Shown here: positions 18,701 through 64,000 of the stretch, piece after piece
Layout of the letters: each line of letters opens with the position of its first letter
Numbering within the stretch: position 1 is the stretch's first letter
NCBI RefSeq assembly: GCF_032854445.1
Contig: NC_088295.1
Location: forward strand, 18,961,385-19,025,384
DNA length: 64,000 bases
Source: Liolophura sinensis
Taxonomy: Eukaryota; Mollusca; Polyplacophora; Chitonida; Chitonidae
Direction: 5' to 3'
Notes under the pieces: model-generated
Told to the model about the DNA's origin: nothing
The model's database searches: none
The model's input: only the letters and a program-made list of their open reading frames with translations
Program-made: the position numbers and the translations under genes

Positions 18701-21700
18701 TGGACTAAACCACGTCTGTCTGTGCACTGTTAAGGCCTTCGACTCTAGTGGTGATATCAATGTGGACCAAACCACGCCTATCCGTGCACTGTTAATGCCT
18801 TTGACTCTAATGGTGATATCAATGTGGACTAAACCACGCCTAACTGTCCACTATTAATGCCTATGACTCTACTGGTGAAATCTGTGTGGACTAAACAGTA
18901 TACTTTGTGAAAATCTTCATAAGACATGGAGTGAGGTGAGACTGACAGCAACTACATGATACACTATGTTCACCACGGCGTCAAACCCACACACAAAATA
19001 ATAAATAAATATGCGAAAACATTTAAATTCATGATTTAATCTTATGACTAACCAAGTAATCCTACGACCTTTTAAATCTACTACTTCATTATAGTGCTCT
19101 TTTTTTGGAAATGAAAACGAAATAGAAAAGAACGGGAAAATAAGTATGACAATATTTTTTTACGATATGAAAACAGATTAAAAGGTGGAGAGCTGCACTT
19201 GGCACAACAGTCTGAATGTCATTGTTATAATAACAAATATTTAGAAACAAACATTCGTACGCCAATCACTCACTATAATGGATGTTCCGGATCAATAATC
19301 AAATTTCCACACAAGCCACAAAATAACTAAGAAAGTAGTAAACCAGGACGGATTCATGTATTATGTATAAAACGGTTCCATAACAGCAGTGGGCTGCAAA
19401 AGAGTCGATTTCCAAAGTTTTTAAAAATATGTTGTATATTTATAATTACACTACCTTGAGCATTGATAATTGACGCCTGGTCGGGTCTATACATGAGTTC
19501 CATTGCTCAGCTAAAATTATTCCGAACAACTGAATTCATCAAATTGAAAAGATTATCACCGTCTCTTTATCGGCTTAGACAAGGCTTCAATCACAGGCTT
19601 CACTGCGCCTGTGTATAACTTGCATATTCGGAAAATACTTCGAATAAATAAGCTATCCGAGTATAAGCTATCCGCTGAAGTTTACTCTATTTCATCACCG
19701 GTTGACAGAAGTGACGCGGCTGTGCTCACTTAGCAGTACTGTCGCTAGCGAAAATGAAATTTGCACATAAATATCAGAGACACGACTTCGGGTTGTAAAC
19801 TTGTTCTACAAATATAATTTCTTGCCGGTTATTAGGGTATTCAGTACCAAGAGGTCACAAGATGAGGCAAGAAATTTTATAGTTTCTTATTACTAATAGT
19901 GTATAGTATTGCTGTACTTCAGGCTTGATGTTGAAATTAATCTTCTGTGGAGAGCTTGACGGTTCCAGTAGCTTATTGCTCATATGTGGGTAGAAATTTT
20001 ACATTTTTAATGAAGGAATAAGAGAATAATATAGCTTTCTCCTACATCAATCAGTTGTAAAAATAAGACATGTGATCATTTTGCATAATGATACATCTTC
20101 ACGTACAAAATCATATCGAAAATTCCAATTTCAAAACTTATGTTTTACAATTGTGATTATTATGTTAGTCCCCAAACATTTTTTTTTAGAAAACATCGGA
20201 AGTGCAGTCAAAATGTACCCCTGAAAGTATAAATCAATTTTACGTGCTCCACGGTATTCACTGTGCTGGTGTCCGATACTCTGTCGCTGATGGAAGCTAA
20301 CACCTTGAAAGGTTTCCAGGCATTTAACCAGTGTAATTGTCTTTTAACCTCTTCAGATTATCGACATATGCCAAGTTCTCGTGGCATTATTGATTATGAA
20401 TATGTATAGTCTCACTGTTACCCAATAGTTTTGAATAGAACAGAGAATCCTTGAAACGTACTGCTTCTCTTGCGACAGAAACGATTAAATTATTCAAACT
20501 GTCTAGTTTCTTAAAGGAAGGAATTGACAGCAATCAATGCATGGATACAACATGAGTGGCAAGATCTACTGCCCTTTGTCTTTGTTGTGGCTATTGAGGC
20601 CATCTGCCTTCAAACTCAAGTCCCAGTGTCTTCTATTTGTCACGCGATGAAAAACACAGCCAATTACCGCTGTCTTTATTTCTGGACATTTAGCCGCGAA
20701 TTCACGGCATTAAATATTAAAGTAAACTAGAGGATCATCTCTTCTTCCCGACACGCTTGCGTGCTACACGCGAAATATAGATTGCGCCGTCCTCTTAAGG
20801 TTGGGCTCCGACTGGACCTGTGCTATTACAAGCTTGTTGGAAGGGGTACAAATGTCTAGTGCTGTCAGTGTGATGCAATACGTGCCCTGGGCCCCGCGCC
20901 ATTCTTGCCTAGATTAGCACGCCTCTCAGACATGTTTAACTGGCCAGCACGCGAACCTTTCCTCCCCTCCACCTCCGCAATACGTTCATGCCATTTTCTT
21001 CAGATTCGTGTAAGATCAATTCAGGAATGATTAGGCTTGTTGAAACTAGGGCTAACTGGCAGTAAAGTAGTCCTCTGGGACAGCAGCCTTTATGCAATTC
21101 TCGCTTCAGAGTGTTTTACAGTTATATTATTTTAACACTTCACAGTTTGTCACGGCATCATTTATTCCTGAAATCTATAACAGCACAAATGAAATGCTCG
21201 TATAGACAAATTCCTGCAGTGATCATCTATTACTCACACTCTTTTATCTTTTTATTGAATAACAGTCTGGATGAAGTTTGTTTCATCCTTTAGCTGATTC
21301 AAATCGCCCTGGGAGACCAAATGAAAACCCCGCAGACAACTGGGATAAACGGAGGTTGAGCAATCACTGGACACAAGGGAGTCTGCTAGCTGAACACAAT
21401 GTTTTGACGGGCTTACGTTGCCAGCATAAATGGCCTATGATTACCGCCACAGAGAAATAAGATTTGGAAAAGGGACAACTTCCCAGTTGGAAAGATTAAG
21501 GCAATTCGATCTTCACCAGTTCTATCGATTGGGCAAACAATGTTCACAAACACTAGAAGCTTTTGTGAATTGTCCATCCACATATCACCAACAAGGCCGT
21601 GTTTTCACGGATACAAATTTCGTGATTTCGGTTAGGCTGGAGTGTTTGGGGAAGCACTCCCGGATTAGCGGCTCAACAAGCCAGTCGGAACAGTGAGCAT

Positions 21701-24700
21701 GTCGGAAAATGCTCCAGCCAGATCCTCCACTCGTGTCTTTTTTCACTTTGCCTAGGTTCTAGATTGTTTGGTCTACCCCTCCTCTATATGCCCCCCCCCT
21801 CTCTTCTGCAGCACACCCCCAATCCCCTCCACCACTTGGAGCAAGACGCAGTTAGACGAGCAACTTGGCTCGGACTATATTGCCTTGATACACATACGAA
21901 TGATGAAAGGTTGGCCAGGGATGTCACGAGAGGAAAGCTAAGACAAATATCTCCGTCCGCCCAAATCAATGGTTTCTGAGACGGGGAGACCCTGCTTCTA
22001 TCATGTCCGACTTCATAAAGTGGCAAATAAGATTATTTGTGTTGGTTGAACCGAGTAGCGAATCCCCCTTTCTATAAATGTCGATGACTCGGAGCCCCTG
22101 TTCGATTTTTCCTCCTCCAAGCCCACAATGTCCCAGCAAAAGTTGACCTAGGTTGCTCATCCATAGCCCTGTTTACACACAGCCTCTGCTTTATGGTCTT
22201 AGCATGCTCCCGCATACCATCCCGTTCCCTCATTTTCAAACACATTGGTTAGACTCTTGTCAGCATCCAATTGTTACATCAGAAGTGGAACGCGTTTGCA
22301 AAACACTTCAGAATAAGACTGTTTGACTGTGACCGCTCACAATAATTTGTGTTTAGTCCTAAACATCCTAAACATGCGACAGCTCTTTCCATTTTATATA
22401 CTCACATCGTCAAGCATTCCAGTGAGTATTATAATGTTTGTTGAGAATGAAAGATTTTAACTCCCATGAAAAACACTGCACCGAATTCAAGGTTGATTGA
22501 AGTGTTTCTTCTACCGTGAATAAAATATCAAAATTTCTCTTCCGGTTTCTTGAGTATTTCCTGAATATTTGTTCAAATATTGGACCAATTCTAAGATGCA
22601 GAAAAGCAGTTGAACTTTTATTACATCCTTTTGACATTGAATATGCTATGACATTATTAACACAGTTTGCACCTTAACACCTTAACAAATCATTTTGAGA
22701 ATAGGATGTATTAATATAATTTTCAACATGATTCATGCAGCAAATAATCTCAAGGAAGCTCTTGTTTTCTTACGATGGTGAAAATTGAAATTCCCTTCTA
22801 TTTCCATGCGTGACATATTTTGAATATTATTCGTTTTGAGCACATTTAGTGTCAATAATAAATTTTAGTTTGTCAATAATTAATTTTAGTTTCATCTATT
22901 AAAGGTTGTTTCTCATATCCAGATCATGTTCATACAAATAGAGGCCAGAATTTTGGCTCTGTTTTCAGTGATATTCAGCTGATAAGAAATATTTATAGCT
23001 TTGTCTTCTTCGAAAGAATTTTTCTAGAAATTCTAATTTTGGTACCCCAGAAAGCAGAAATATCTTTTTATTAGGAGAAAAGCTGTTGTACACTGCGTTA
23101 TATAAACTTTTATTTTATTTTGTTGTGGTCAATATTTGCTGTATTTTCTTTGTCAGAAACCCTTGCCCAAGTTGCCCGTCCCGGATCTTCAGTCAACCCT
23201 GGACAAGTATTTGGCCATGGTTAAACCCATTGTAGAGGAAAAGCAGTACGATATCACCAAACAAATTGTAGCAGAGTTCGGTCAAAAAGGAGGCGATGGA
23301 GAATACCTGCAAGAAAAGTTAAAAACATACGCTGAAACCAAAGATAATTGGGTAAGAACATATACGACAGGATGAATGAATGACGTGGGCATTTTAGTTT
23401 AAGCCACTTTATCAGTATGTTAGAAATAAATCGTATTAATTGTGAGAATTAGTCTGGTTTTATTTAGAGAGCCATGGAGACAACCTATAGGAAAAAGAAA
23501 CATAAATGAACGAAGGGAAAAGTATTAAAAATAAAACACTAGCGTGGTACCTTCGTCTTACATCCAAGAAATCAAAGTATGCTTGTCGACACAGAAGTAA
23601 ACTTTATGTTTGACATATTGGTACGGTGGACAAGTATAGTCTGCTTCAGCGCCTTGTGTAGAACCTAATCATCGACCAAACCAGGCCCTCCTTGAGATAC
23701 TTTACCCTCAAACATTACCATCATCTTTGCGATTTAGGTCTTGATCTTTGTCCACATGCCGGCATGAGTGCATTGTGGCGGTTATGGCAAAAGCTCGGCT
23801 TTCGGGTTTTTTCTTGGCACTTATATATCATTTTGATTTGGGGCATAGTATTGCCTTGACAGAAATCTAATTCTTAGTATCGAAAAAGACAAAGATGGTT
23901 GGCCGTAATGAATCGATATGAGTAAAGTTTTGTGTTGGAAGCGCCGATGTTTATCTCCTGGCCACCAGAAGCGTATCAGTAAGTTGACGGGAGTTAATGA
24001 ACGAGGCTGGGTTTGTATCCTGAATGGAAATAACCATTCCGTGCAAACAGCAGCCCAGTCGGTCTGCTTGGTTTACCCCAGGAAATTGTATCGCGAAAAT
24101 CCGTTACGCCCTACTGTAGACTGTTTGATGTAACGGTCGTTCTGGTGCAACTGAAGCTTCATGACGGGATGACCTTACTCCAGTATTCTATACCATGACG
24201 ATCCATGCCAATCACACAGGCACCATGATCCGTAAAGACTCTAGTATTCCAGAAAGTTGTGTGGTTTTTGGTTGCTTAGCCTAGCGCTCGCAAACCCCTT
24301 CTGGCATGTGAGATGAACCTCTAAAAGCTTGAATGTCATGAAGAAGGCTGTAAATACAGAAAAACTGTAAGAGAAACTTTTAGACATCAGACAAGTGGTC
24401 ATCTAGAAATGCCATTGGAGGGAGTATTTTAGAAAGTAAAACCTCCTTTGAGACTTGATAATTTGCTATACTGGAAGAAAGGTCTTATTTAGTCCTCCAG
24501 GGAAATAATTTTGATTTGCGAAATACATATCTGGCTTGGGCAAAGTAGCGATGGATCTGTGTCGCGGTTCCGCGCTAATGTCTCCCCTGTGCTTAGCCCG
24601 AGATCGAAGGCAGTCAGAAGGGGGAACGACCACTGTCTCACAAGAAACCCTGCCAGACAACCCGTCAATAGGAAAATATCTGCACGTGTAATTGCTGGAG

Positions 24701-27700
24701 ATAAATTAACTTAGGTCTGTCATCCAGGGACGAAAAAATCAAAGCTCATTTTCCTCTAGAATAGCCACGGGCACACCCCAGAACCCAGTCTTGAAATTTC
24801 CCATTTAGTCACAGCAGTAACAAAGTTGCCTGTGCCTCTCTGTTGGGCCCGTAATTCTGCAGCACATCGGCTGATGGAGTATCCGGCTCCACATGGCAAG
24901 CTTCCCTCCACAAGGGAAATAGACCTGAGGTTGCTCTGTCATTGGCCTTCTCGTCCGAAACGATAGACTGCAAATGGAAACCAAACTGAGTTATTCAGGC
25001 CTGGATATTTTCACTGTCTATTACATATGTAACGTTGTCATTTTGCGACTCTTAAACAAATATTTGTATAAAATGACAACAGAAAAAAAAACACCTGAGG
25101 GAATTGGCGATTTTCTCTTAATTTTACTGATTTACTATATTGGCCAGCAACATATACATTTGTTCTTTTTTTACAAACATAAGGAAGACATTTTTTGTTT
25201 GTTTTTTTTTTTGCACGTAAAATCAAAGGCTTTCTGAGAAAAACTACGAATAACACATTCTGAATTTTAATGATAATTTGTTACAAAGTTTTATATTTTA
25301 TACACAAAGTTTTAGTTTGTATTTAATTTCGCAAAACACAAAATATCATGAATTGTGATAGATTAATGTTTAACATGTCAATTTTCTGCACAGGCGTATA
25401 ATTGGTGGTTAGACGAGATGTATATGAAAGTACGACTTCCTCTTCCTGTGAACTCTAACCCAGGCATGGCATTTCCGCGCCAGTATTTCGAAGACGAACG
25501 CGCACAGTTACGGTATGTCTCAGTTACTTGCTGTAATAACTTGTGTGTTGTTTTTAATATCATTGTGAAATAGCAACACAAAAACTTTCCACGAAACTTT
25601 TTAAACTAAATTTACATTTGGACTTCCCCTTTACAGGTTTGCAGCCAGGTTAATTTCTGGCATTCTGGACTATAAAACAGTTATTGACGCGTGAGTATTC
25701 CGTTTTATTTGCACAGTTCACTGAAAGGTTAAGCCAACTAATTAATAAGTGAATATCTAATCAGAACAACGCCATTAGTTTATAACGGCATGTCGCTAAT
25801 GAGAATCTCTATGCTAAAATTCGCTGCGCATGTCCTCATTTAGGCCTCTTTCCCACTGTCCCCAATCCTCAGCCAAATGCTTCTGTCGGAAAGAATTTGC
25901 TTAGTAGTTGTCTTGTCATATTGATTATCTTGTCCTAGTCGTCTTTGTCAAATGTTTCGGAAACCTTGCAGAATTGATGCCCGTTTAATGTCAAAAACTG
26001 GACACTATAATCATTTTACAATGTTATCCGTGTCCGTGCGGCGCCGTGTCATCAGCTTATGTCCACAAATCCCTAATGAATGACACATTGATAGATCCCA
26101 GACCGAGCCTCGTAACACCGTCTCTTTGCTGCTGTCCTACCGCCATCAAGAACGGACAGGATGGAAAATGGTCACTGTCGTCTCTGATGACAACCAACGC
26201 TTAACTCGGCCATGTCCTATCTGTCTTATTTGTCTGGCATCACTGGCTGACATTCTAGGAACTATAAGTGTAGGGTATTGTGGTATGGATAGAATTTCAA
26301 GATAAGGGCAGGTGATGGCCTGTAGTAAACCTGACAGTATATAGATCGTCGTGGACATAAGATAACATACGGTCTCTGCATATTGTCCTGACCATTCAGA
26401 AGTTGTTCTATCGGCTTGATATGTCCCACAATTTTTATGCGCTCAGAAAAAAACTGAAGCCAGCCTGGAGGTCTAGAGTTTCCAGTTATGGTGGCACTGG
26501 ACTTGGACAACACTTCATTTTGGCTGTTCACAAAATCACAGCTCTCCTGGGGCGAAACTGGGCGGCAGGAATAGGTCATGGTATTCTGATCTGGGGGCCA
26601 AAATGTCGCCAGCTGACATCAAAGTTATCTTGACATCGCCTGGATAGAGCTCGACCTATGACTCCTATCCCTGGGATATTAAAGCAGAAAGTTTCCTCTA
26701 AATATACCGATCTGCTTGACCCGATTAATCGACTGTCATACATGATGGATGTAACATGGTATGGATGAATATATCATGGATTTGTTTTAGGCGAGGGCTG
26801 CCAATAGATCGAGCCAGGCACCGTGAGAAAGGCCAGCCGCTGTGCATGGAACAGTACTACCGACTGTTCACTTCCTACCGGGTTCCGGGCAAGGGCAAAG
26901 ACAGTCTCGTGGTGGACGCCACAAACATTTTACCCGAACCTGAACACATTGTGGTTATCTGTAAAAATCAGGTACTCTGTTCATAATCTGAGAGCTTCGC
27001 TAAGGCTTTACCAAGTCATCCATGTCAGCAATCATATGACTTACCGCCAAATGATTCCCTAATTCACACAAGTATGAGCCATTCACCACTAATGTCAAAT
27101 CCCAGCGAAGACTGACAGTCATTTACCACTTGTAAACCACGAAGACCAATCAAAGTCGCAAAACTTATTTCCAAAGCAACTTAAAACATCAGTTCCAAGG
27201 AAAATATACATGTAAGAAGTAATATAAAATGACGGCATGGATAAAGCTTTCTACCTTTATCAGAGAGTCGATATGATAGACCTTGTTTTATAACATAAAT
27301 AATAATAAAACTTATTTATGAGCACTATCAAAGAATATCAGTATAAACCATTTTACGGGTTACATTCGGATGGTACTTTTTACCCAAGATTAAAATTTCG
27401 CACCAACTACTTTCTCTGATCTCAGTCTATAATACACAGAAAACAACAAACCGACGTTGTTTAATTTGTATCGAAACCTTTGCTTCACTGACAGAGAGCC
27501 TCGTAGCTACTATTCATGATTACATGTAAACTGAAGCCGAAACAAAAAAGCAACCTTCAGTCAAGTGGATGTACATTAGATTTTACCCTTATTCAGGCCG
27601 AAAATTCGTGGTAATGAAATTTTTGATGGCAAAGTGCTTTAACAGAATAATAAATTTTTATCCACGACCACAAAGAAAAGAGTTCATCATGCCCCACACC

Positions 27701-30700
27701 CACTATTATCTTGATTTATTTATTTATTTGATTGGTGTTTTACGCCGTGCTCAAGAATATTTCACTTATACGACGGCAGCCAGTATTATGGTGTGTGGAA
27801 ACCGGGCAGAGCCCGGGGGACTATTATCTTAAGTTTTCGAGGACAGATGTCTTCGATGAAATGAAATGATATATTAATGAGCAGTATTTTTGGTGCAGAT
27901 GTTTTTGTGAGCTGCAAAGATAAATTACTTGGCATGTTTCGCTGTCTTATATTTCCAAAGACTTTCTTCTCATTTCTCATTGTTATACACTCCTCGGTCT
28001 TCAGTAATCCTGGCAATCTGAATACCCCTTCTTCTGACTAATGAGACCTAATGCGTTTATCTCTGATGAGTAACTGATGGAGTGAGAGAATTGCACCATC
28101 GTCATCATAATTATGGAAATCAACTGCATTCATAACGCAACGACACAAACATATGACAGCTTGGAGAGAAAGAAAACACGTTAACGGAAAATCATAAAAT
28201 CATAAGTGATGTATTATCAGGAAGTTCTCATTTAGTTCATTAGTATTATCCATCACATTCAGTCACCGACATTATCATTCATTTCCTTATAATTGGACGA
28301 GTGTTCCATGCTATTAAACAAACAGTGTTACGTAATTCACAGGTGTAGTTGTGAAAACATCTCGGGAAGTTTGCAATCTAAGATTCTCTCTAACAGGAAT
28401 TCAATACATCTATTAATTTACGTCTGAAAATCTATCTTAAAATAAAAATTGGATAATGAAGTAGACAATGCGCCACGAGAAAGATGAGAAATGTATATAT
28501 AATGTGCGTCATGTAATGTCAACGAAAGCAAATGTTGTTATTTATATTTTTGTGACAGTGGACTTGAAAATATAATGGCTGGGTCTTATAAAGTCGTGTG
28601 ATTTAGTTTTAGTGCATAGTTAGTGACTGAATATCAAAGTTAAATGGATTGTTACTGCTATATCACATATTCACATTTTTCCATCAATAAGAAGGGCATA
28701 TCTTCCTACAACAAAAGCTATTAAAACTTTTTGTACTTTAAAACTTATCACGCGTACACTCTTGTAATTAATTCTCCTTAATTGCTTCCCATAATGCGTT
28801 GGTTGAGACTAAAATTTCTTGATATAGACACATGGTGCGTGAATGTAACTATGTGCTACATTTTCCTTTCAGTTTTTTGTATTGGATGTTGTAATCAATT
28901 TCTTACGACTTACACAAGACAATCTTTTCACTCAACTTTCCCGAATTGTGAAAATGGCCGAGGAAAATGAAAGTACATGTGATCCTATTGGAATCCTCAC
29001 GTCACTCGGGCGGGATCAGTGGGCTACTGCGCGCATGCGTTTGATGGAAGGTAAAAATTGTCAACAGTCTCTCTTAAAAGGAAATCAGCCCCATTCCACC
29101 CAATGCCTTGTTTATCTGTACTTAATTTAGTTTGATTGTACAGAACCTCGAGCACATGTGTGTCAGGTGAAATTCAGCCGTTTACTTCTTCTTTTTGTAT
29201 CAACGAAATTGTGAGATTTATTTATTAGTAATTTGTTTTTATATTTGTTATGTATTATTTATTGCTGATTTATTATTTGTTGGTATTTTAAGGTATATTA
29301 ATTTAATCTACATCCACCATGACGTATATACGTAGAAAGACATTGGTAGAGCCCAAATTCCACCACACCGCCTTCAATATTTTTTTCAGTAGCTCTTCTA
29401 TTCTGATGAGATTCTAGTGAGAGAATAGTTAGGAGTCCTTGCCGGTCGCCTGGATTAATGACTTCTCTTCAATAGCAATTCACTAATGAGATCAAAGGTT
29501 CGAATTCAACCTCCCCTGATTTTGCCGCTGGTTGAAATTGTGCAGTGCTTTCTTGTCGCCACCAAATAAATAAAATATCCTTGATTACAGAGTAAAACAC
29601 TAATTACATAAACAAGAAAATAAACTTTTCTAGCGTGAGGTCTTTAGACTACTCGATCATTGAAAGCCTCGCTGATTTATGAATCTTACCAGGATTTCAC
29701 TGTCAGCAATATTGTACCTGTGTTTTGAAGTGACATTGTCTTATTTAGTAAGTTCTTCTTCCCAGAGTCTACCAATAGAGATAGCCTGGATCTTATTGAG
29801 AGGTGTATATTCGTGCTGTGTCTGGACTCCAGCGTACCAATAGCCTTTAACCATCAAAGTAGCGTGGACGAGACGTCCATGTCTGTCAGAGATGACGTCT
29901 CACTGGCTTTTCAGATGCTCCACGGGATGGGGTCTTGTGTCAACAGTTGTAACAGATGGTTCGACAAAACTATGCAGGTAAAGAGAAAGTTAATATGTGA
30001 AAACTGTTGATGGATCTTTCGTACAAATAACTGTATGAGGTGAGCTGAAAAGTCAAAATGTGTATGTTTCCTATATTTACATATGCAGTGGGCAAACTGA
30101 ATCGACTCTATCCTGAATTAACACATCCTTGGAATATTTCAGGGAGCAATATATAACCTGTGATATACATATGGATGCTGTAAGTAATTTTTAATATAGT
30201 TTCCATCCACAAAGTAATTAAGAAATCCAGATGTGCATAGTCTTCTGAAAAATATCAACAAGTGGGAAAGATATACAGACGATCCTACTTAAACATATTA
30301 TCTTTTCCGAAAGGTAAAGTGCCTAATTTCTGTAGTTCCAAACACTGTATTCCACCTAAAGTATAATATGTTACAATGCACTTTCAGAAGCACTTTTAAG
30401 TAATCATATAAGGTGGGTGAATCAATTAGAATCAAGCAAAATACGTCACTTGAAAAATGTTACACTTTAGGTGAAATCCTGTGGCTCTGTGGTTTTCTGA
30501 TTTCAGTTCAATATAATAACACAAGCATAGTGCAAAGTATTTTTTGTTGCAATCTGTCGGTCAGTGTGGAGAGAACTGTAGTGGACTGCTGTATACCAGT
30601 AGGGGAGACAGAAAGATTAAACCCCCGTATTCTCGCACACGCCGTGGGTGTAAGACGGAGGATCACCGGGGACAATCAGGGGTTGTTATTACAGCGCTTT

Positions 30701-39783: not shown

Positions 39784-39838
<55 letters not shown>

Positions 39839-49056: not shown

Positions 49057-49180
49057 GTATGTCTCAGTTACCTGCTGTAATGACTTGTGTGTTGTTTTTA
49101 ATATCATTGTGAAACAGCAACACAAAAACTTTCCACGAAACTTTTTAAACTAAATTTACAATTGGTGTTCCCCCTTACAG

Positions 49181-49232
49181 GTTTGCAGCCAGGTTAATTT
49201 CTGGCATTCTGGACTATAAAACAGTTATTGAC
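49181..49232 (+). pseudogene. ChAT exon 4, copy B, donor site lost
   Basis: Identical to A up to T-V-I-D, after which the donor gc|gtgagt and about 24 bp are replaced by 'gtaggtaactg'. Candidate donors there (after 49232 or after 49236) would both shift the frame into exon 5. Confidence 0.85.
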
Positions 49233-50203: not shown

Positions 50204-50384
50204 GCGAGGGCTGCCAATAGATCGAGCCAGGCACCGTGAGAAAGGCCAGCCGCTGTGCATGGAACAGTACTACCGACTGTTCACTTCCTACCGGGTTCCG
50301 GGCAAGGGCAAAGACAGTCTCGTGGTGGACGCCACAAACATTTTACCCGAACCTGAACACATTGTGGTTATCTGTAAAAATCAG
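50204..50384 (+). pseudogene. ChAT exon 5, copy B
   Basis: 181 nt, apparently unchanged in protein from copy A, with both splice sites kept. Confidence 0.85.
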
Positions 50385-52085
50385 GTACTCTGTTCATAAT
50401 CTGAGAACTTCGCTAAGGCTTTACCAAGTCATCCATGTCAGCAATCATATGACTTACCGCCAAATGATTCCCTAATTCACACAAGTATGAGCCATTCACC
50501 ACTAATGTCAAATCCCAGCGAAGACTGACAGTCATTTACCACTTGTAAACCACGAAGACCAATTAAAGTCGCAAAACTTTTTTCCAAAGCAACTTAAAAC
50601 ATCAGTTCCAAGGAAAATATACATGTAAGAAATAATATAAAATGACGGCATGTATTAAGCTTTCTACCTTTATCAGAGAGTCGATATGATAGACCTTGTT
50701 TTATAACATAAATAATAATAAAACTTATTTATGAGCACTATAATAGAATATAAACATAAACCACTTTACAGGTTACATTCGGATGGTACTTTTTACCCAA
50801 GATCAAAATTTAGTACCAACCACTTTCTCTGATCTCGGCCTATAATACACAGAAAACAACAAACCGACGTTGTTTAATTTGTATCGAAACCTTCGCTTCA
50901 CTGACAGAGAGCCTCGTAGCTACTGTTCGTGATTACATGTAAACTGAAGCCGAAACAAAAAAGCAACCTTCAGTCAAGTGGATGTACATTAGATTTCACC
51001 CTTATTCATGCCGAAAATTCGTGGGAATGGCATTTTTGATGGCAAAGTGCTTTAACAGAATAATAAATCTTTATCCACGGCAACAAAGAAAAGAGTTCAT
51101 CATGCCCCACAGCAATTGTTATCTTAAGTTTTCGAGGACAGATGTCTTCGATGAAATGAAATGATATATTAATGAGCAGTATTTTTGGTGCAAATGTTTT
51201 TGTGAGCTGCAAAGATAAATTACTTGGCATGTTTCGCTGTCTTATTTCTCCAAAGACTTTCTTCTCATTTCTCATTATTATACACTCCTCGGTCATCAGT
51301 AATCCTGGCAATCTGAAGACGCCTTCTTCTGACTAATGAGACCTAATGCGTTTATCTCTAATGAGGAGCTGATGGAGTGAGAGAATTGCACCATCGTCAT
51401 CATAATTATGGAAATCAACTGCATTCATAACGCAACGACACAAACATATGACAGCGTGGACAGAAAGAAAACAATCACCGACATTATCATTCATTTCCTT
51501 ATAATTGGACGAGTGTTCCATGCTATTAAACAAACAGTGTTACGTAATTCTCAGGTGTAGTTGTAAAAACATCTCGGGAAGTTTGCAATCTAAGATTCTC
51601 TCTAACAGGAATTCAATACATCTATTAGTTTACGTCTGAAAATCTATCGTGAAATAAAGATTGGACAATGAAGTAGACAATGCACCACGAGAAAGATGAG
51701 AAATGTATATATAAAGTGCGTCATGTAATGTCAATGAAAGCAAATGTTGTTATTTATATTTTTGTGACAATGGACTTGACAATATAATGGCTGGGTCTTA
51801 TAAAGTCGTGCGGTTCAGTTTTAGTGCATAGTTAGTGACTGAATATCAAAGTTTAAGTGCATTATTACGGCTATATCACATATACACATTTTTCCATCAA
51901 TAAGAAGGGCATATCTTCCTACCACAAATGCTATTAAAACTTTTTGTACTTTAAAACTTATGACGCGCGCACTCTTGTAATTAACTCTCCTTAATTGTTT
52001 CCCATAATGCGTTGGTTGAGACTAAAATTTCTTGATATAGACACATGGTGCGTGAATGTAACTATGTGCTACATTTTTCTTTCAG
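50385..52085. other. Intron 5, copy B
   Basis: Lacks the SINE found in copy A and about 85 bp near 51475. No gene recognised. Confidence 0.7.
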
Positions 52086-52263
52086 TTTTTTGTGTTGGAT
52101 GTTGTAATCAATTTCTTACGATGTACACAAGACAATCTTTTTACTCAACTTTCCCGAATTGTGAAAATGGCCGAGGAAAATGAAAGTACATGTGATCCTA
52201 TTGGAATCCTCACGTCACTCGGGCGGGATCAGTGGGCTACTGCGCGCATGCGTTTGATGGAAG
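52086..52263 (+). pseudogene. ChAT exon 6, copy B
   Basis: Full length with splice sites kept. One replacement, L-R-L-T-Q to L-R-C-T-Q, and two silent changes relative to A. Confidence 0.85.
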
Positions 52264-53021
52264 GTAAAAATTGTCAACAGTCTCTCTTAAAAGGAAATCT
52301 GCCCCATTCCACCCAATGCCTTGTTTATCTGTACGTAATTTAGTTTGATTGTACAGAACCTCGAGCACATGTGTGTCATGTGAAATTCAGCCGTTTACTT
52401 CTTCTTTTTGTATCAAAGAAATTGTGAGATTTATTTATTAGTAATTTGTTTTTATATTTGTTATGTATTATTTATTGGTGATTTATTATTTGTGGGTATC
52501 TTAAAGTATATTCACTTAATCTACATCCACCATGACGTTTATGGACAGAAAGACATTGGTAGAGCCCAAATTCCACCACACCGCCTTCAATAATTTTTTT
52601 CAGTAGCTCTTCTATTCTGATGAGATTCTAGTGAGAGAATAGTTAGGAGTCCTTGCCGGTCGCCTGGATTAATGACTTCTCTTCAATAGCAATTCACTAA
52701 TGAGATCAAAGGTTCGAATTCAACCTCCCCTGATTTTGCTGTTGGTTGAAATTGTGCGGTGCTTTCTTGTCGCCACCAAATAAATAAAATATCCTTGATT
52801 ACGGTGTAAACACCAATTACATGAACAAGTAAATAAACTTTTCTAGCGTGAGGTCTTTAGACTACTCGATCATTGAAAGCCTCCCTGATTTATGAATCTT
52901 ACCGGAGATGAAAAACGATGATGGCCTTCTACTTCTCTGGGTTGCTGAAAGGATCTCACTCTCAGCAATATTGTACATGTGTTTTGAAGTGACATTGTCT
53001 TATTTAGTTCTTCTTCCCCAG
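52264..53021. other. Intron 6, copy B
   Basis: Carries the degenerate SINE at 52651-52820 and about 45 bp absent from A (near 52904-52950). Confidence 0.65.
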
Positions 53022-53081
53022 AGTCTACCAATCTTATGGAGAGGTGTATACTCGTGCTGTGTCTGGACTCAAGCGTACCAA
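53022..53081 (+). pseudogene. ChAT exon 7 remnant, copy B
   Basis: The acceptor and first codons remain. Five codons after S-T-N are missing in frame, and after S-S-V-P the sequence jumps to text found at about 30268 in A, deleting the rest of the exon, its donor and about 290 bp of intron. A cryptic donor AAAG|gtaaag at 53130 would join exon 8 out of frame and meet a stop within four codons. Confidence 0.88.
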
Positions 53082-54057
53082 AGATGAGATACAGACGATC
53101 CTACTTAAACATATTATCTTTTCCGAAAGGTAAAGTGCCTAATTTCTGTAGTTCCAAACACTGTATTCCACCTAAAGTATAATATGTTACAATGCACTTT
53201 CAGAAGCACTTTTAAGTAATCATATAAGGTGGGTGAATCAATTAGAATCAAGCAAAATACGTCACTTGAAAAATGCTAAACTTTAGGTGAAATGCTGTCT
53301 CTCTGTGGTTTTCTGATTTCAGTTCAATATAATAACACAAGCATAGTGCAAAGTGTTTTTTTTGTTGCAATCTGTCGGTCAGTGTTGTGTGGAGAGAACT
53401 GTAGTGGACAGCTGTATACCAGTAGGGGAGACAGAAAGATTAAACCCACGTATTCTCGCACACGCCGTGGGTGTAAGACGGAGGAACACCGGGGACAATC
53501 AGGGGTTGTTATTACAGCGCTTTGCTCGCCAATATCATCGCAATCTTACAGTTTTGACTTCATTTAATCGCTAATTTGGCTGAGCTCTCAACTCCGCTGA
53601 TCAGTTTGCTACTGATGAAATGAGGGGTAAACTCAATTGAACAGTCTGCGAACGGGATTGGGCGGGTGTAGGTGAATTTTAGCGCTCATGGTCGAATTAG
53701 ATTTTCCCGGGCAGGGGCACACATTGTGGAAAGAAACAAAAAGCGAGAAGTTGCCTGGCCAGGGCTGCATCAATCTCAGATCTGCCGGTCTGTGGGTTTT
53801 GAGGACAGCCGCTTATTAGATAAGCAGATTGTCTTTGAAGGTTGGGTGAATTATAAACTATACATGCCTCGTTCATGGCGTGCGTTTGACGTTGCCAGTT
53901 TAAAAAAAAACACTTCATTAAATATATGTATGAATTGGAAAGCGACCTTTACGCTAAAACTATCTGTAGTATTCTTAAAAAGTTTACATCGAAAATTAAA
54001 ATCTTTTATGAAAATATTAATTCAGGCTAATTAACTGCTTTGTGTTTTTGTCTGCAG
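53082..54057. other. Intron 7 remainder, copy B
   Basis: Matches A from about 30268 onward and also lacks A sequence near 30980-31165. Confidence 0.65.
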
Positions 54058-54158
54058 CTTGTGATTGAAGAGGACGGAGCCTGTGGTTTGAACTATGAAC
54101 ATTCTCCATCTCAAGGCATTGCTGTGGTTCAACTCATAGAACATCTCCTCAAGTACAT
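54058..54158 (+). pseudogene. ChAT exon 8, copy B
   Basis: Keeps the catalytic E-H-S but reads L-V-I-E-E-D-G and S-P-S-Q-G where copy A has F-V-I-G-Q-D-G and S-P-S-E-G. The last change breaks the acidic position of family signature 2. Confidence 0.85.
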
Positions 54159-55876
54159 GTGAGTATATAACCGCCAAACGGCAATATATCCTTTTCGTCA
54201 GAATGTATTACTGAAATGTGACTTTACCTCCCACGGCGATACAAGTCAAAAACCACCATAGAGACAATTAACAAATGACACAAGCTAGTCAGAGTTAGGC
54301 ATCTTCCTTAAGTTCATCAAGTTCTTGACAGATCTCATTCTGAGAAATAGCCCCCCTTTGGCGCAATGCCAAGTTCTGTTTTCAGATGGCGTGGGAAGAT
54401 GTTAAATACATCCCAACCCATGGGCAAGCCATCGACTGCAGACCGGAAGTGCAACATTCCAGGCTGAGAAAATTCCTTAAAAATAGCAAACTTTTGAACG
54501 GGTTAATTGCATGTTTTCTTATTTCATATCAAGCATCACATCTCTCGTTTTATTTTCTCTCTTAAACACGATTACAGTACTAAAATAAATTATGTGTCAA
54601 AAAAACTAAACGTCTAGACGACAGATTATTAACAGTAACGATAACATTATATTTACATCGTGATCCATATTCACTGGTCATAACTATTTGGCAATGTTAG
54701 TGAACAATATTAGTGGCAATAGTCACAGATATTTCCAGTGCTAGTCAGCAATTTACAACCAGTCAGCTGTTAGAAACATCCTTGAGGCATTTTAATAATG
54801 CTCTGTAATATTTAATATAATGAAAATTCATTCCATAGTATCTGTCTGAAACGTTTTAAATTTACTATAACATAACACTAACATGCTGTTCGCCTAAACC
54901 GTAAGCTGAACAAAGGGCTGTAAGACTTGTAAGAGTTGATATCTGTCACCCATTTCTCAACATTAAATCTGATATTGACAAAGAGCCCAAATTCTGTTGC
55001 GCGAATTTATATATATTGTATCAGATTAGTTCCACTTTTCTGATATAGGTAAACTGGTTAACGTTTAAAATATGTCCTCTAGTCGGAAAAGATGTGTACC
55101 AAAGTAACTTTTTCCTTGCGTAATTAATACCCGAGGCTTGTGAATGTCTGGGTTTGTGTCAAGTATCGGTTGTCGATAGATCCTCGAGGGTAACTGCTCG
55201 TGATATAGAGGGCTGGTAAGCATATTTGTTTACCCAGATTAGGGAGGGTTACAAGATGTGTTTGAGCTCACGTCGGCAAAGTTACTCTCCCGGTCACACA
55301 AGCCTACATGTATCTATATCCAGATTTATATAAGACAATGTCTAGTGTGGACAGGTGACGTAAACACTGAAGGAAGTCTGACAGACGACCAATCGATCAC
55401 TGTTAGAAGCCGAAATTTACCTTCATCTACGGCTGTCATTGCCATACTTTATCTTTAAACAGTGTCTTTACTGTTTTAAACTCATCCTTGACAATGGTCA
55501 TAGTTTAAACTAATAGCATTTTATCTCCAACTAGCGCTCTATAGAAGAACTTTTTTCTCTTATACTTCATTTTGGGGTGCATTTTTGAAATGCCCCTGCT
55601 TTTTCTCTTATCCTTCATCGTGGGGGATATTTCACATGTCTTCATGAACTAAAGAAGCATAGAGAGGAATTAACCAAGATAATCAAACTATGTACCATTT
55701 GTTCCGTTCTGCTTATAATATACGAGAATGTATCGATTTATGGGCGATACCAGTGGAAATAATCTCTTGAGTAGACTTCTTTCAGAAAAGTGGTGTCAAA
55801 CAATTAAATTTGTTCCCACTTCTGTAGCCTGTGCTTTCGTCCAGTTCATGCAGTCTTCTATGTTTTTTGATTGTAT
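54159..55876. other. Intron 8, copy B
   Basis: Similar to A with a deletion of about 90 bp near 54376 and many single-base indels. No gene recognised. Confidence 0.65.
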
Positions 55877-55994
55877 GGAGGAGGTGAGAACGCGACGATT
55901 ACCACGGATGCAGTCAATATGTGAGTTGCCTTATCGCTGTAATCTCTACTGATATCCTACAGGATATCAATATGGCCAAAACTCAAATTGACAG
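55877..55994 (+). pseudogene. ChAT exon 9, copy B, three lesions
   Basis: The acceptor gattgtag has become gattgtat. A 14-nt deletion follows the Y-codon of L-Y-W, shifting the frame and giving TGA at 55950-55952. Codons just before it are also scrambled (Y-R-C-N instead of Y-P-R-K). Confidence 0.9.
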
Positions 55995-58900
55995 GTATAT
56001 ATACAGTATGTTTGTTGTTTTACGCTGGTTAAGTACAAGCTGTATTTACATTATACCACTGAACGGCGTACGTCATTGAACCGGTTTGGTTTTTCTCTGA
56101 ATATATGTGAATACTTCTTGCTGAATATTCTCTCCAGTCCGTTAAAGCGACTTGGGTTCAAAAAGAATATTTGCAGATGAGATTTGGTTTTTCATGAATG
56201 ACCTATCCTCGACGGAAGATTTTCAGAGAAGGCATTGGCAAAACTTTGCAGCTACTGTGTTTGGAATAGACATGTTAATAATGTGAGCTTTGTTGAGTAA
56301 ATACACTACTTTGCAGACAAGGAACAAGGTCTAGGGGTAATGTATACAAGTACCTGCATGATTCGGAATTTGATCAGTGCGTATTTTGTTGTGAATACTA
56401 AATTGCCTTTTGGCAATTTAATGGTGAACATTAACATGTGTGACGAAAAGCTCCACTCCAATTTGTTGAACGTAACGCCCCACAAACGGATTCATGAGAG
56501 CAGCTGACCGCGCTATTGGTACTAAGCTTCCACGAACAGCAAGAACCAGTGAATGTTGATGGCCAATGCAGATTGAAGTACATTGAAAGAAATAGTTTTA
56601 AGACCTTGTACATGGCTGAATGCACTTTTATCTTCGTCTGAGGCAATCTAAATGAATGTTTACATCTCACACGTTTCTGTAAAAGAGCAAATCTTCCCAC
56701 CTCACAAAGAACAAGATCACCACAGGGAAATGCTTAAATACCATGCTTCTTCATTACAAACGTAAGTATTTTATGGAATTACTCTTAAATTACATTTTAA
56801 GAGATTACATTACATTTGAAAGCTATGTTAATAACGTAGGATCTGTGGCTTGTGGAAAACATTTGACTGAATAATAAAGCTAGAATGAGAACAAAAAGAA
56901 GTTAATTTGATTCTATCGACCCCTTTTGGGCGCTAACGACGTATTAATAATATTAATAATGGCAAGGGACGAATGGCCCCTTCAACAGATCCAATACAAC
57001 TAAGGATTTAAGGTATACAAATTCTTTGGTGTAGATTTTAATATTGCCTGGCCCAACAGTTCTATGAAATTTTACCACGTACAATTAAAGATGTGAGTGA
57101 ACTGATAATATGGTATCAATCAAACACTGGAAACGCTTAAAACAACTAACTTCCCAGGGGAAGAATTGTGTTACAACTGATTTGCATAGCCTCGCCAAAT
57201 AAACTTCACACACGCTCTGCTTACCATTTGCTAATATCAGTAGTCTTATTCTTTTTCTCGCATTTTGGTATTTTAAATTCTTTTAAGTAGTTTGGAAAGT
57301 TTCGGCTTGATAGTTTAAAAGTAGATTAAAACCTGAGCTCAATTTGTCTACTAGTGATATTTTGTAGAAATACAGGAGAAGTCAAGTTCGAGTTCATACT
57401 AGGAAAAGTCTTGTGAAGAGTGTTAATGCATGCGCATCTTGTATTAGAACAACAGACATATTCACTTGTTGCGTAGCGTATTGTGAGTTAAGTTGGTCAA
57501 CACTTTGTGAATAAAGTTGGTCAACACTTTGTGAATTAAGTTGGTCAACACTTTTTGAATTAAGTTGGTCAACACTTTGTGAATAAAGTTGGTCAACACT
57601 TTGTGAATTAAGTTGGTCAACACTTTTTGAATTAAGTTGGTCAACACTTTGTGAATTAAGTTGGTCAACACTTTGTGAATTAAGTTGGTCAACACTTTGT
57701 GAATAAAGCTGGTCAACACTTTGTGAATTAAGTTGGTCAACACTTTTTGAATTAAGTTGGTCAACACTTTGTGAATTAAGTTGGTCAACACTTTTTGAAT
57801 TAAGTTGGTCAACACTTTGTGAATTAAGTTGGTCAACACTTTGACATGACGAATACTCGATTGAGTTTGTTTAGTGCCCCGAATCTCGCTAAAGCTCTGA
57901 CAAGTACCATGTTCCAGAGTGAGACTGTGACGAGTAATCTGTAGTGAATATAATGTAATAGCTGCACGCTGTGACGAGTATTCTTCACATTCTTGGGACA
58001 AATGGTCTGAATAGGGTCAATAGTAAGGTCAGTACTGAACAGGCCTTCTATACAGGGAGTTAAAGTACTGGCGAATACTCCACCAGCTTTTCGGCACTCT
58101 CAGTAAGCCTTCAGATGGCTCAGTCCCAGTCCGCTCCCCAATCTCAGAACGCAGCATTGATTGATGTGAATACTTTTTGCCATATAAATCAGGAGAACAG
58201 GTTCTCGTCCGGAGACAAATTGTTCGGATACCTGAATGAAGGGCGAGAAGTACATGTTTTTACTGATTGGTTAGATCACGCAGTTGACTACTCTTTCAAT
58301 CTATTTAATCGAAGAAGTCCATGGGGATTTATTTCAATTGGGATCGCTTAGCTGAAAACCTGTATTCTGGCGATATCCCGCACCAGACAATTAAGGGGAT
58401 TTCAGCCGCCAAAATTAACAAACAAGCCCGGACCATTTTGAAACGAGTTGATTGACAAGCCGATCTGGTTAAAGGGTGGGCCGTTCCTGGAGTTTAGTTC
58501 ATTTATTTTCCTGGTACGGATGTAAATTGGCTAGAGGATGCCATTTAGGGGGACACTAATCCAACCCATCTGTCGATTTCATTAGGCCGCTTGCTCTAGC
58601 TGGATTAAATGATGAGCTCCTCAGCCAAGTCAGGTCATTGACGTCCCAACTGACCAGAGAAGAATCATCCAATGAATCGAAGAGAATTTAAATAATAAGT
58701 TTTCTTCCCAATATGTCTTGGCCGTTCAGTCTTTTCCACGCTGAAATAACAACAATATATCAAACGTCAATGACGTCACGGTGTGGCCCTGCTTCGCTGC
58801 AAGCACCCGCGTTTATTATCATTTCAATACAGACAATGTCTGGCAAACCTCCAAAGGTCCCGCCAAAAATAAAATAGTTCAGGCATTCATCAAAGAAAAA

Positions 58901-59746
58901 TTTATATATTCAAACCATCTTGGACCCATGCAAGAAGGGAAAATTAGAAAATTCTCGTTTTTCACCATCAGGAGTAGAGTAGAGATAATTTTCGATGTGA
59001 AACGGACAAATTCGTTCTTGCAATTATCGAACCCATTCATTATATTTCAATTCAAGCAACATGGCGTTAATGTTTGGTTGGTGGGCGTTTATAAATATTG
59101 AGCCTATATATTCTGTATATACCTCTATTATTCTAGCTTTCCAGACCTTTACTCTGTTCGATCTCAAGAAAAGTTATTTGAAACAGTTGAGCATTAATAA
59201 ATGAATAGTGAGAAAATGTGAAGAATTTATTGCTGGAGCACTTGTATACCTCTGCTTGATGATACTTGATCAATAGATCTACATTATTGATGAACTGTCA
59301 GTATCTTAATATGCGAATTTTGTTCGACCATTCACAAATGTCCGAAACACTTTGTTGTGTTTCACTTATGAATAGATTTAGGAGGGCTTTCGTTACATGT
59401 ACATTTTGTTGTTGTTGAATCATGAGACTCTAGAAGGTTCCATGGTGAGGTGTGCACAGCTCAGATACCATTCATACTCCGTTAGAGCGTGGGTTCCAGT
59501 TACTGAACAACTAAACCAGATTATGTTCATGGAAATATGGTATGTTGTAGATAGGAATGTTATTGTCTCTGCTACGTTGCTGTTGGCGTCCCTAACAAGT
59601 CGTTGGTTCCAGCGACTTCCCTAAACCCTCTGATCTCTGATTATATACAAATCGATTCAACAATATGGTTGAGGTTGCCAGCAAATCAAGCATAGTACGC
59701 TAGTTTGTGATCGATCGTCTTACTGTTTTTCTTTCCGTTATTTTAG
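55995..59746. other. Intron 9, copy B, with a 2-kb B-only block
   Basis: Matches A at both ends. Sequence from about 56080 to 58074 has no counterpart in A and contains the 24-bp array. I see no terminal inverted repeats, poly(A) tail or clear target duplication at its edges, so it may be an insertion here or a deletion in A. An 89-codon minus-strand frame at 56431-56700 is unrecognised. Confidence 0.7.
57490..57842. repeat. 24-bp tandem array, about 15 units
   Basis: Unit 'aagttggtcaacactttgtg' plus 'aatt', repeated every 24 bp from 57490 to 57842 with few variants. Because 24 is eight codons, the minus strand reads an open K-V-L-T-N-L-I-H repeat; I regard this as an artefact of the period. 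Confidence 0.95.
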
Positions 59747-59869
59747 GTTGATAAAGAATCTGGATTTGTACTTTCTCCGTTTTTCTAAGTTCGGTCGAGA
59801 GTTTCCGAAAACACAAAATATGAGCCCTGACTCGTTTTTCCAATTAGCGCTGCAGCTGACTTATTACAA
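59747..59869 (+). pseudogene. ChAT exon 10, copy B
   Basis: Full length, splice sites kept, two I-to-F replacements (L-Y-F-L-R-F and S-F-F-Q-L). Confidence 0.83.
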
Positions 59870-60474
59870 GTAAGTATCGTGTTTCTGTGGAGTTCAAACA
59901 AACCGGGCGGTTCACAAACAAAAATGTACACGAACTCCAGGTTTGTTAGCCTTTCCGCTAATTACATCAACCAGGTTTTGTAGACGTTGATTCAATGAAC
60001 TCCGATTTCAAGCCTTTGTTCACAGAAGTAAGAGCTGGAAATTCTATTTGTTGGACATTTCATGGTTTTATCTTACTGGTGTGCAGTTACAGATTGACAT
60101 GCGTGCTCATGTCAACTTGTATTACCTGTACAAACTACAATTTACCAACCCGTGTCTTATCGATGGAACGTACAATCGGTATTTCGCCAAATTACCATTG
60201 TTTTAAGGTATGGAACCAGTGAGTTAATTAATTCCATTTCTTAATTAAATCACTGAGTTGTTGGTGAATAGCTACTGGTCAAGGACATTTCAGGATAGAA
60301 GAAAATATGAAATGAGTGAACTTTAAGCGACAGTAAACAACACACACAGAGAAAGGTTTACACCGAAGATTTTCCGTCGGGACAGAAAAGATATCAATCA
60401 GATCAATGTCTGTTGACATCTTATAAATACCATGACTAAATATACGCCAGTTAAACATCTGGTTAATTTGGCAG
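59870..60474. other. Intron 10, copy B
   Basis: Almost the same length as in A (605 versus 603 bp). No feature recognised. Confidence 0.6.
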
Positions 60475-60613
60475 GGTTCACGGGCGTTTAGTGTCCACCT
60501 ACGAAAGTGCGTCCACCAGACGTTTCCGGTTGGGGAGAGTAGATAACATCCAGGCATGTTCACCTCCGGCATTGGAATGGGTAAAGGCAATGGCTGGAGA
60601 AATAGAGGCCACG
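60475..60613 (+). pseudogene. ChAT exon 11, copy B
   Basis: Keeps G-R-V-D-N-I; the conserved Arg after it is Gln, and a Thr is Ala. Splice sites kept. Confidence 0.83.
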
Positions 60614-60841
60614 GTAAGGATGGCATTGGATGGATGGCAAAATTATAACCTTGACAAATATCTGGTAACTGCTCAAAGAGTATAAATACACCTACGTCAT
60701 AACGCTAATTTAACACAGAAAAGTAAACAGAAAAGACAGGTTGTTTTGTTGAAAAAAATGTTTAAACAGTCTGTCGTCAACTAAAAGTATTTCTGGCTAC
60801 ATCTCCATATCTTATCCTCAATATTACATCGTATATCACAG

Positions 60842-60904
60842 GATGAGGAGAAAATGAAGTTGTTGCGAAAAGCCATGGCCTGGCAGACAGACATTATGGT
60901 TCAG
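60842..60904 (+). pseudogene. ChAT exon 12, copy B
   Basis: Sequence appears identical to copy A, with the same splice sites. Confidence 0.83.
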
Positions 60905-61902
60905 GTGGGTTTTACGAGCTTTTCTTTTACCTAATGGTCTGAGCTAAAAGTTCTCATCCAAGTTATTACAGTTTTAGAAGACACAGAGAATGTTTTCGGT
61001 ACATATCAGTTGGGATGACCGTAAGTTTAATTGTGACATCTAATTGTAACTTTCAACATCTTTGTTGAAACCATACTTCTTTAGGTGATTAATCGGGAAA
61101 GACACAACAAATGAACACATATCACAAGATCATCAACGGTAATTGTTGCTACCAGCAGAATACTGATTTAATATAATATTGATGCTTCCACAATGTTAAT
61201 GCAATAACTTACGGAAACCACTGCAATGCTTGTGTAATAGAATGATGTACTTCCTAATGTAATGAAATAGCGATGCCTCCACATTGATGATTTAATGTAA
61301 TAGCGATGTCTCCACATTGATGATTTAATATTATAACAATGTCTCCACATTGACGATTTAATATAATAGCGATGTCTCCACATTGATGATTTAATATAAT
61401 AGCGATGTCTCCACATTGATGATTTAATGTAATAGTGATACCATCACTTTGATGATTTAATATAATAGCAAAGCCTACACATTTACGCTTTAATATAATA
61501 GTGATGCCTCCACATGAGGGTGTAATACAATAGCGAGGTCTCCACATTGATGATTTAATGTAATAGCGATGCCACCACACCGTTGGTGTTAAAGCATGGG
61601 GTTCAACAACAGCCAAATAAATAAATAAGTTAACATTTAACGTGGAACGTTTAAAACTCAACAATTTTAAAATACTGAAATAGTGATACCTCCACATCAT
61701 GGATGTAATGAAATAGTGACATCTCAACGAAATATGGATTATTGATGTAACGAAATAGTGACGCCTCAGAGAAATAGGGATTATTGATGTAATGAAATAG
61801 TGACGCCTGTTTACTTAGAGAAAATCTGAATTTAGACATAATCTATATACGGGTTTGTCGTGAAAAATGTATCGTCAGCTTACGTGCCCTTTTCATTTGT
61901 AG
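60905..61902. other. Intron 12, copy B, with short minisatellite
   Basis: Contains only about 10 units of the 33-bp repeat (61258-61578) where copy A has about 40; flanking text matches A. Confidence 0.8.
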
Positions 61903-62040
61903 ACAATTCTGGGACATGGCATTGATTGTCATTTGATGGGACTGAGAGAGATCGACAATGAGCTCAACTTTCTCGTACCGGAAATATTCACAGACCAATC
62001 TTACATCAGCTCTAATCAGTTTACCTTATCCACCAGCCAA
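61903..62040 (+). pseudogene. ChAT exon 13, copy B
   Basis: Full length with S-T-S kept. Replacements R-E-I-D-N for R-E-I-A-N and F-L-V-P for F-P-V-P. Confidence 0.83.
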
Positions 62041-63069
62041 GTAAGTGAGGCCCGACAACCTTACTGACATAACCAGTAAGCGAGTGCTATACCGGTATTT
62101 ATTCATCTGAGCTTCCGCGATCAGAGTTGTCCTGTACAGAGGTAGGTGTGTCCCGACAATCTTACTGACGGTAGTAAGGGAGTGGTATTCCGTGGCCGTG
62201 CGTGTCCACCGGAATGATAAGTGTAAGAGTCAGGGTGTCTAATCGTCAGTTCGGTTAATCTTTGCATTAATCTGAAACATCTGAGTTTCGGTGATGATAC
62301 AGAATTCATAAAGATTGGCTGTACCGAAAGTCACCGAAAACTCAGTGGTTTACATCAGGAGAAATCAACTTTATCGTCCGATTTATATTCTATGCGTCGG
62401 AACAGACATGGCTTATCATCAACTACAATGAACGCTCCTGGTCAATGACCGCTAGAGCATTTTACAAAACGTTCAGCACAAATGACCAGAAGCTAAGAAC
62501 ATCTATAAAGTAAGATATACCGACAATATCATGTTTAGCGTGCTATCGCAGTACAGTGTGAAGAACTACAGCACGGAGAGTAGAACTAGAACAGTGACGA
62601 CAGTGTGAAAGGTGGGGAATGGTCGTACGTATTTCCGGTGAAATCTGGCCTCTTGTCAGTTTACCTTAGTCAAGGTTTTATTTCGACTGTTCATGTATAT
62701 GTCTAAACAGTAGCAACGTAGACACCCCCTAGCACCATGGCTTAAGTAGAAGTAGGTAAAAAAATTTAGTGATGTTAGCTGCAATTAATTATTCGTCACT
62801 TGTCCAGAATCACTCAAAATGCCGTGTTGTAATCATGTTTAATAGATAATCAGATTAAAACAATGACCTAGGAAAAGGACAGTTTTTCCAATGCGATCAT
62901 TGTGTGTTAACGTCCATCTCACTCTGGCTTCATCTCCGGTCGTAAATTGAAAAGTGTTCCAGCAACCAGCGAATTGTCGTGGGTTTCCCGAGCCCGGTTT
63001 TCTCCTATCAAAATGCTGATCGCTGTCGTTTAAGTGAAACATTATTGAGTTTGGCGTAAAACTCCTGTA

Positions 63070-63108
<39 letters not shown>

Positions 63109-63397
63109 ATCATAATCTTTCTGTTGGTGCTGTGCGCCGTGTTCTGAATTGTTTTCTGCACCATCGTATCTACTAGTGTACATCTTCATAGTTCTTATCT
63201 CTACATGTATATCCTTTATGCGTATGCAGGAGAGATTTTTCCAATACTTTTTTTCTTCATAGTTTGCTCATCCCTCTTGGAAAATAGGCAATAAGTTCAT
63301 AAATATTTGATTTATTTATTTATTTGATTGATGTTTTACGCCACATAAATATCTGAGGTATGTTACATGATGTTTGTTTTCTTCATGCCGTGTTCAG
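62041..63397. other. Intron 13, copy B
   Basis: Has the same SINE and tail fragment as copy A and about 75 bp near 63130-63205 not found in A. Confidence 0.65.
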
Positions 63398-63838
63398 GTA
63401 CCCACGACGATGGACGATGCGTCCATGTGCTACGGCCCGGTTGTCCCTCACGGTTACGGAGTCTGCTACAATCCTCACCCCAACAACATCCTCGCGTGCG
63501 TCTCCTCATTTCATAGCTCTTCAGAGAGTGGCACCGAATTCTTCGCATTGACTTTGGAAAGCAGTTTTCTGCAAATGTACGAGTTGTGTATGAAGCTCAG
63601 TGCTGGCAATGCCGATAACTATGCAAAGCAGCGCGTGAATGGTGTTTCCAGCAGTTCTTTAGCGTCCACTGACGCTACCAGTTGTCCACCAGTTAACGGG
63701 ATCAATGGGAAACCTAACTGCCCGAAAAATGACTTGGACTCATCAAACGTGTGTAGTAACGGGGGTGTGGCTGGAGACAGTCCACGCCGGAACAAGTTGA
63801 TTAGACAGAAGGACCGGAATTCTCTAGACCGGAAGTAG
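63398..63838 (+). pseudogene. ChAT exon 14, copy B
   Basis: 147 codons including TAG, open, with acceptor gtgttcag. Four replacements from A (F-to-S, V-to-A, S-to-T, M-to-I). The 3' flank up to the window end matches the flank of copy A. Confidence 0.85.
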
Positions 63839-64000
63839 TGGTGGGTTCACGGAGAATTATGTGCACATGTTAAAACTGTGATGAGATGTTAGGTTGTTAT
63901 GGTCAGATTAATACGGCTTGTTAATTAGGCTGTAGGATAAAATTCATATATATGACGCTGGGTTAAGTAAGGTGTAGTTAGATTGATTGTTCCTCAAAAA

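Follow-up and report, generated by a model that had tools for sequence, protein, structure and literature searches.

A direct tandem duplication, with an offset of about 24,675 bp, occupies much of the window analysed here, a 64,000-nucleotide stretch of the mollusc Liolophura sinensis (contig NC_088295.1; G000:C1:18961385-19025384). It carries exons 2-14 of a gene for choline acetyltransferase (ChAT) and also the 5' portion of an adjacent predicted gene, called X below. ChAT copy 1 reads as one open frame while copy 2 is damaged in three exons, and it is with good confidence that we regard the locus as a real tandem duplication with a dead second copy. Self-alignment of the window, first by itself and then extended by flanks of 10 kb on the left and 30 kb on the right (L001), delimited two units:

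21115-45789, + strand: duplication unit 1, 24,675 bp, with part of the presumed ChAT intron 1, exons 2-14, the downstream region and a truncated copy of gene X
45790-64000 within the window, + strand: duplication unit 2, ending at about 68964 (L001 about 4964), some 5 kb beyond the window (self-alignment and global alignment)
45789-45790, no strand: junction of unit 1 and unit 2, where gene X sequence abuts presumed ChAT intron 1

The units adjoin head to tail without a spacer and not a single N occurs between 21000 and 70000. Global alignment gives 96.9% identity between them (20,204 of 20,844 aligned bases), far above chance, and includes 71 gaps, a count that omits one edge gap (of 72) caused by cutting unit 2 at 69000. 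At least 15 bp are involved in 21 of these gaps, 16 missing from unit 2 and 5 from unit 1. Divergence per kb is patchy, ranging from 1.1 to 7.0% in bins with at least 600 aligned bases (the range excludes one bin of 148 aligned bases, 10.1%), with values of 1.1-1.4% near 26 kb and at 39-40 kb and of 4-6% over most of 27-34 kb.

The original prediction, made from the letters of the sequence, had proposed a direct tandem repeat of ChAT exons 2-14 with a 24.7 kb offset, and the self-alignment that it asked for bears this out. The extent of the repeat has to be redrawn. It had been described as a 19-kb block confined to ChAT and followed by a spacer; the unit measures 24.7 kb (21115-45789), the next unit starts at the following base, and the true junction is 45789/45790. 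The segment from 40.65 to 45.79 kb was considered as a spacer between the copies and rejected because the self-alignment finds it to be duplicated as well: it is the end of unit 1, recurs after copy 2 and carries the 5' part of predicted gene X. For the same reason 40.7 kb, which had been named as the point at which to look for unique downstream sequence, is the wrong place.

The first unit contains ChAT exons 2-14, located downstream of a transporter frame:

23157-40493, + strand: ChAT copy 1, exons 2-14, one open frame of 691 codons
23157-23351, 25394-25512, 25637-25690, 26791-26971, 28873-29050, 29766-29977 and 31426-31526, + strand: copy 1 exons 2-8
33469-33600, 35357-35479, 36083-36221, 36452-36514, 38593-38730 and 40053-40493, + strand: copy 1 exons 9-14
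2344-4104, + strand: presumed VAChT open reading frame, intronless, 586 amino acids, Pfam MFS_1 (8.7e-35), upstream of the duplication

AG precedes each of the 13 exons of copy 1 and GT is present at each of the 12 internal donors. The encoded protein scores 676.8 bits against 1t1u and 650.9 against 2fy2, which we take to be rat and human ChAT, and 511.9 against the best carnitine acetyltransferase, 1t7q. By these scores, copy 1 is a ChAT rather than a carnitine acyltransferase over its full length. In both copies, the sequence from the last upstream stop to the acceptor of exon 2 contains no in-frame ATG. The start codon is therefore presumed to be in an exon further upstream, and ChAT exon 1 probably lies upstream of the duplication. 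The name VAChT for the frame at 2344-4104 is our assumption, from its position beside ChAT. The 3-kb stretch with this frame has one match in the genome (the genome searches covered 609 Mb in 632 contigs), so that VAChT is not duplicated. The claim that VAChT and exon 1 had been left uncopied thus stands for VAChT, and for exon 1 by presumption. The position of this MFS frame, 19 kb upstream of the ChAT exons and on the same strand, fits a VAChT within the first intron of ChAT, an arrangement known from other animals, such as a tick (PMC7524744). A tandem array with 62-bp units (18273-18896) is also found in the presumed ChAT intron 1, upstream of the duplication.

The second exon set is located in unit 2 and three of its exons are damaged:

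47799-63841, + strand: ChAT copy 2, probable pseudogene with remnants of exons 2-14 (exon mapping and lesions)
49181-49235, + strand: copy 2 exon 4, without its native donor, which a deletion of about 24 bp has removed
53022-53081, + strand: copy 2 exon 7, 60 of 212 nt aligned with an internal 15-nt gap; a 425-bp deletion takes the remainder and the donor
55877-55994, + strand: copy 2 exon 9, AT in place of the acceptor AG; 14 nt missing, with a frame shift

Two genome searches list matches exon by exon, and in both of them unit 1 alone matches exon 7. Splice sites are kept in copy 2 exons 2, 3, 5, 6, 8 and 10-14, as is their length apart from a 3-nt insertion at the exon 14 stop codon. The introns are retained and align to those of copy 1. 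The possibility of two intact ChAT genes was considered and is ruled out by the lesions in exons 4, 7 and 9. The thirteen exons that had been attributed to each copy are therefore present in copy 1, whereas copy 2 has lost most of exon 7 and one splice site in each of exons 4 and 9. The second copy had also been described as lacking a promoter and start codon; what had been missed is that, irrespective of that lack, the lesions and a relaxed divergence make it a pseudogene. We consider it highly probable that copy 2 is a duplicated (unprocessed) pseudogene from which no protein function is to be expected.

This relaxed divergence was assessed from the numbers of non-synonymous and synonymous changes per site (dN and dS) over 633 of the 691 codons, codons with a gap being omitted. 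The two copies differ by 28 non-synonymous and 13 synonymous changes (dN 0.0191, dS 0.0320, ratio 0.60); with exons 7 and 9 set aside, 20 and 8 remain. Non-exon divergence (0.0324) equals dS, which indicates that the synonymous sites evolve neutrally. Under a constraint of 0.1 on both copies, the probability of at least 28 non-synonymous changes among 41 would be 2e-8; with a single copy constrained (0.05-0.2) and no constraint on its partner, a ratio of 0.53-0.60 would be expected. The changed residues were polarised with the two solved vertebrate ChAT chains, 1t1u and 2fy2: of all 27, 15 have the outgroup residue in copy 1 and none has it in copy 2. Judged by the ratio of 0.60 and by the fact that all 15 polarisable residues have changed in copy 2, selective constraint is lost in this copy, and a second functional ChAT is not supported.

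The right end of the duplicated unit falls inside predicted gene X, the neighbour of ChAT on the same strand, which is present in two versions:

About L001:4025-5098, outside the window, + strand: predicted gene X, open version, formed by unit 2 and the right flank
44913-45789, + strand: gene X, truncated copy at the end of unit 1, its 3' end cut off by the junction

The open version has 364 codons (357 from the first Met) and crosses the end of unit 2 without a stop. The truncated version is 77% identical over residues 1-280 of 357 and shows two TAG and one TAA in frame, several frame-shifting gaps and a 48-bp gap. Gene X has two DNA matches in the genome and three protein matches, all in the same two places, and no Pfam family was found for it at E values up to 0.1. 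A second open frame of 101 codons (69038-69340; L001:5038-5340) overlaps the end of X in another register, which may be due to chance, to an indel in X or to an intron that escaped detection. After gene X, and outside the duplication, there is a rhodopsin-like G protein-coupled receptor exon (Pfam 7tm_1, 1.2e-12) at L001:6099-6557, that is 70099-70557 in window coordinates.

ChAT and X therefore show a mirror-image decay: for each gene, the broken copy is the one expected from the layout to be dispensable. One tandem duplication, some 24.7 kb long, would explain the whole arrangement if its left breakpoint fell beyond VAChT in the presumed ChAT intron 1 and its right breakpoint within X. Such an event would leave ChAT complete on the left, as the upstream sequence with VAChT and presumably exon 1 followed by unit 1, and X complete on the right, as unit 2 followed by the right flank. 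Between these intact genes would remain a 3'-truncated X running into a 5'-less ChAT. The inner copies would have decayed since they were never complete, and copy 1 would supply all the ChAT of this animal.

Recombination between long repeats was examined as the source of the duplication and rejected: the 200-bp stretches at the outer breakpoints are no more alike than shuffled sequences (local score 7; mean 7.6 and maximum 11 in 200 shuffles). Among the self-matches listed, no repeat of at least 90 bp links the outer breakpoints. At the junction there is no long repeat; the sequence shared there, judged by eye from the alignment, is short and imperfect. Because the outer breakpoints lack detectable similarity and share so little at the junction, end joining or template switching appears to fit better than recombination between repeats.

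Several points weigh against this interpretation or reduce the force of its evidence. The uneven divergence per kb is as compatible with gene conversion or problems of alignment as with a single clock; gene conversion between the units is possible, and the age of the duplication is therefore not simply readable from dS. The difference in exon 9 may in part be a local rearrangement rather than separate substitutions, and 12 of the 27 changed residues are undecided or outside the coverage of the outgroup chains and hence not polarised. Divergence is lower in exons (41/1909) than elsewhere (596/18791), as expected if one copy is constrained, yet this alone does not discriminate paralogues from alleles. 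Gene X is a predicted open reading frame, resting on its open frame and its position, and the overlapping frame past the breakpoint leaves its C-terminus unsettled.

The most serious alternative, which also counts against a real duplication, is an assembly artefact in which the two alleles of a heterozygous individual were laid end to end (a false heterotype duplication). The layout would then be identical, and the 3% divergence and the 21 length differences of at least 15 bp could be allelic, since divergence of that order can occur between haplotypes of highly heterozygous invertebrates. According to PMC9516828, assemblies often contain false duplications, which can include connecting sequence that no reads support; a gap most often, although not universally, separates the copies. 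Here the blocks are adjoining and nearly identical, as in that type of error, but no gap separates them. Moreover, one allele would have to carry a dead ChAT, with three damaged exons and a protein divergence far above the constrained rate, and the other allele a dead X, whereas this mirror-image pattern is the one predicted by a real duplication. The flanks are also single-copy. Like the VAChT stretch, the right flank has one full-length match in the genome; the other 46 matches obtained with it are partial, 70-84% identical, and correspond to a dispersed repeat. An artefact is thus unlikely, and from this one assembly we judge the duplication to be real with high confidence.

Another reading, compatible with the single tandem duplication favoured here, is that transcription across the junction, driven by X's promoter and 5' part, extends into ChAT copy 2 and yields a chimeric RNA, now non-coding or regulatory. 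The truncated X and copy 2 share the same strand across the junction, and tandem duplications over gene boundaries are described in PMC5460883 and PMC3449122 as making chimeric genes, often with altered expression. On the other hand, the X part contains stops and frame shifts and ChAT copy 2 is broken, so that a long protein is not expected, and no sign of constraint was seen on copy 2. Such a chimera is very improbable, and we would give still less weight to the more elaborate idea that its transcript, in neurons or other cells, regulates intact ChAT and that the broken copy was kept as a regulatory RNA gene.

Finally, copy 2 as a working ChAT cassette, alternatively spliced or separately promoted, with exon 1 spliced past copy 1, could draw on the exons that retain their splice sites and, but for 3 nt, their length, but the lost exon 4 donor, the mostly deleted exon 7, the loss of acceptor and frame in exon 9, the ratio of 0.60 and the one-sided residue changes make it scarcely credible.

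Some sequences are, in addition, present in one unit only, the main items being the following:

44170-44384, + strand: insertion resembling a short interspersed element (SINE), 215 bp, ending in poly-A and flanked by an 11-bp repeat (identified by eye), in unit 1 only
27699-27816: SINE-like insertion flanked by an 11-bp repeat (identified by eye), in unit 1 only
56081-58071, + strand: stretch unique to unit 2, 1,991 bp, containing a 24-bp tandem array (57481-57843)

Unit 1 therefore has at least two SINE-like insertions absent from unit 2, and because unit 2 is without them both probably postdate the duplication. Relatives of these insertions are located near -5321, -3153, 72000 and 77667 in window coordinates. 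A tandem array with units of about 33 bp also differs in length, covering about 1.4 kb in unit 1 (36867-38269) versus about 0.3 kb in unit 2 (61257-61579).

A search of the genome with the ChAT protein returned 28 matches, 23 in the two units and 5 elsewhere. Further ChAT copies were considered for the latter and rejected, these matches being only 39-51% identical. Two more sets of PF00755 matches are found at G000:C11:10465276-10478550 (- strand) and 10533159-10551526 (+ strand), in opposite orientation and about 55 kb apart. Sampled pieces of this pair match at 71-85% in four short rows, which suggests an older pair.

A count of ChAT-like loci would give two genes in this animal while the evidence supports one, and the gene count is thereby corrected at a locus usually regarded as single-copy. 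Knowledge of acetylcholine synthesis is unchanged. The locus illustrates clearly, on a small scale, how a duplication cutting through two neighbours leaves each of them alive only at its outer end. The mirror-image decay is, furthermore, a useful internal test of a real duplication against an unmerged haplotype when reads are not at hand. In a literature search that was incomplete (titles and starts of abstracts), we noticed no report of a partial ChAT duplication, from which no absence from the literature is claimed.

Duplicated pseudogenes are common, and copy 2 resembles them in its retained introns, its lesions in several exons and its relaxed protein divergence; it differs in having been incomplete from the start, without VAChT and presumably without exon 1. 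With the cholinergic gene locus, as described for a tick (PMC7524744), the arrangement shares an intronless VAChT frame upstream on the same strand followed by the ChAT exons, whereas here a second, broken exon set trails the ChAT part. Duplications that partly span two adjacent genes and produce chimeric duplicates are reported in a review (PMC3449122) and for cases in Drosophila yakuba (PMC5460883). The layout is alike: the 5' part of one gene, X, meets the 3' part of its neighbour, ChAT, on the same strand, and both parents would be complete at the outer ends, given a presumed ChAT exon 1 and an X that is a predicted open reading frame with no Pfam match. The present case, known from sequence, differs in the decay of the joined copies, which have stops in frame, frame shifts and missing splice sites. 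Boundary-crossing duplications and duplicated pseudogenes are thus both known, and what appears to be new is this instance of them at the ChAT locus.

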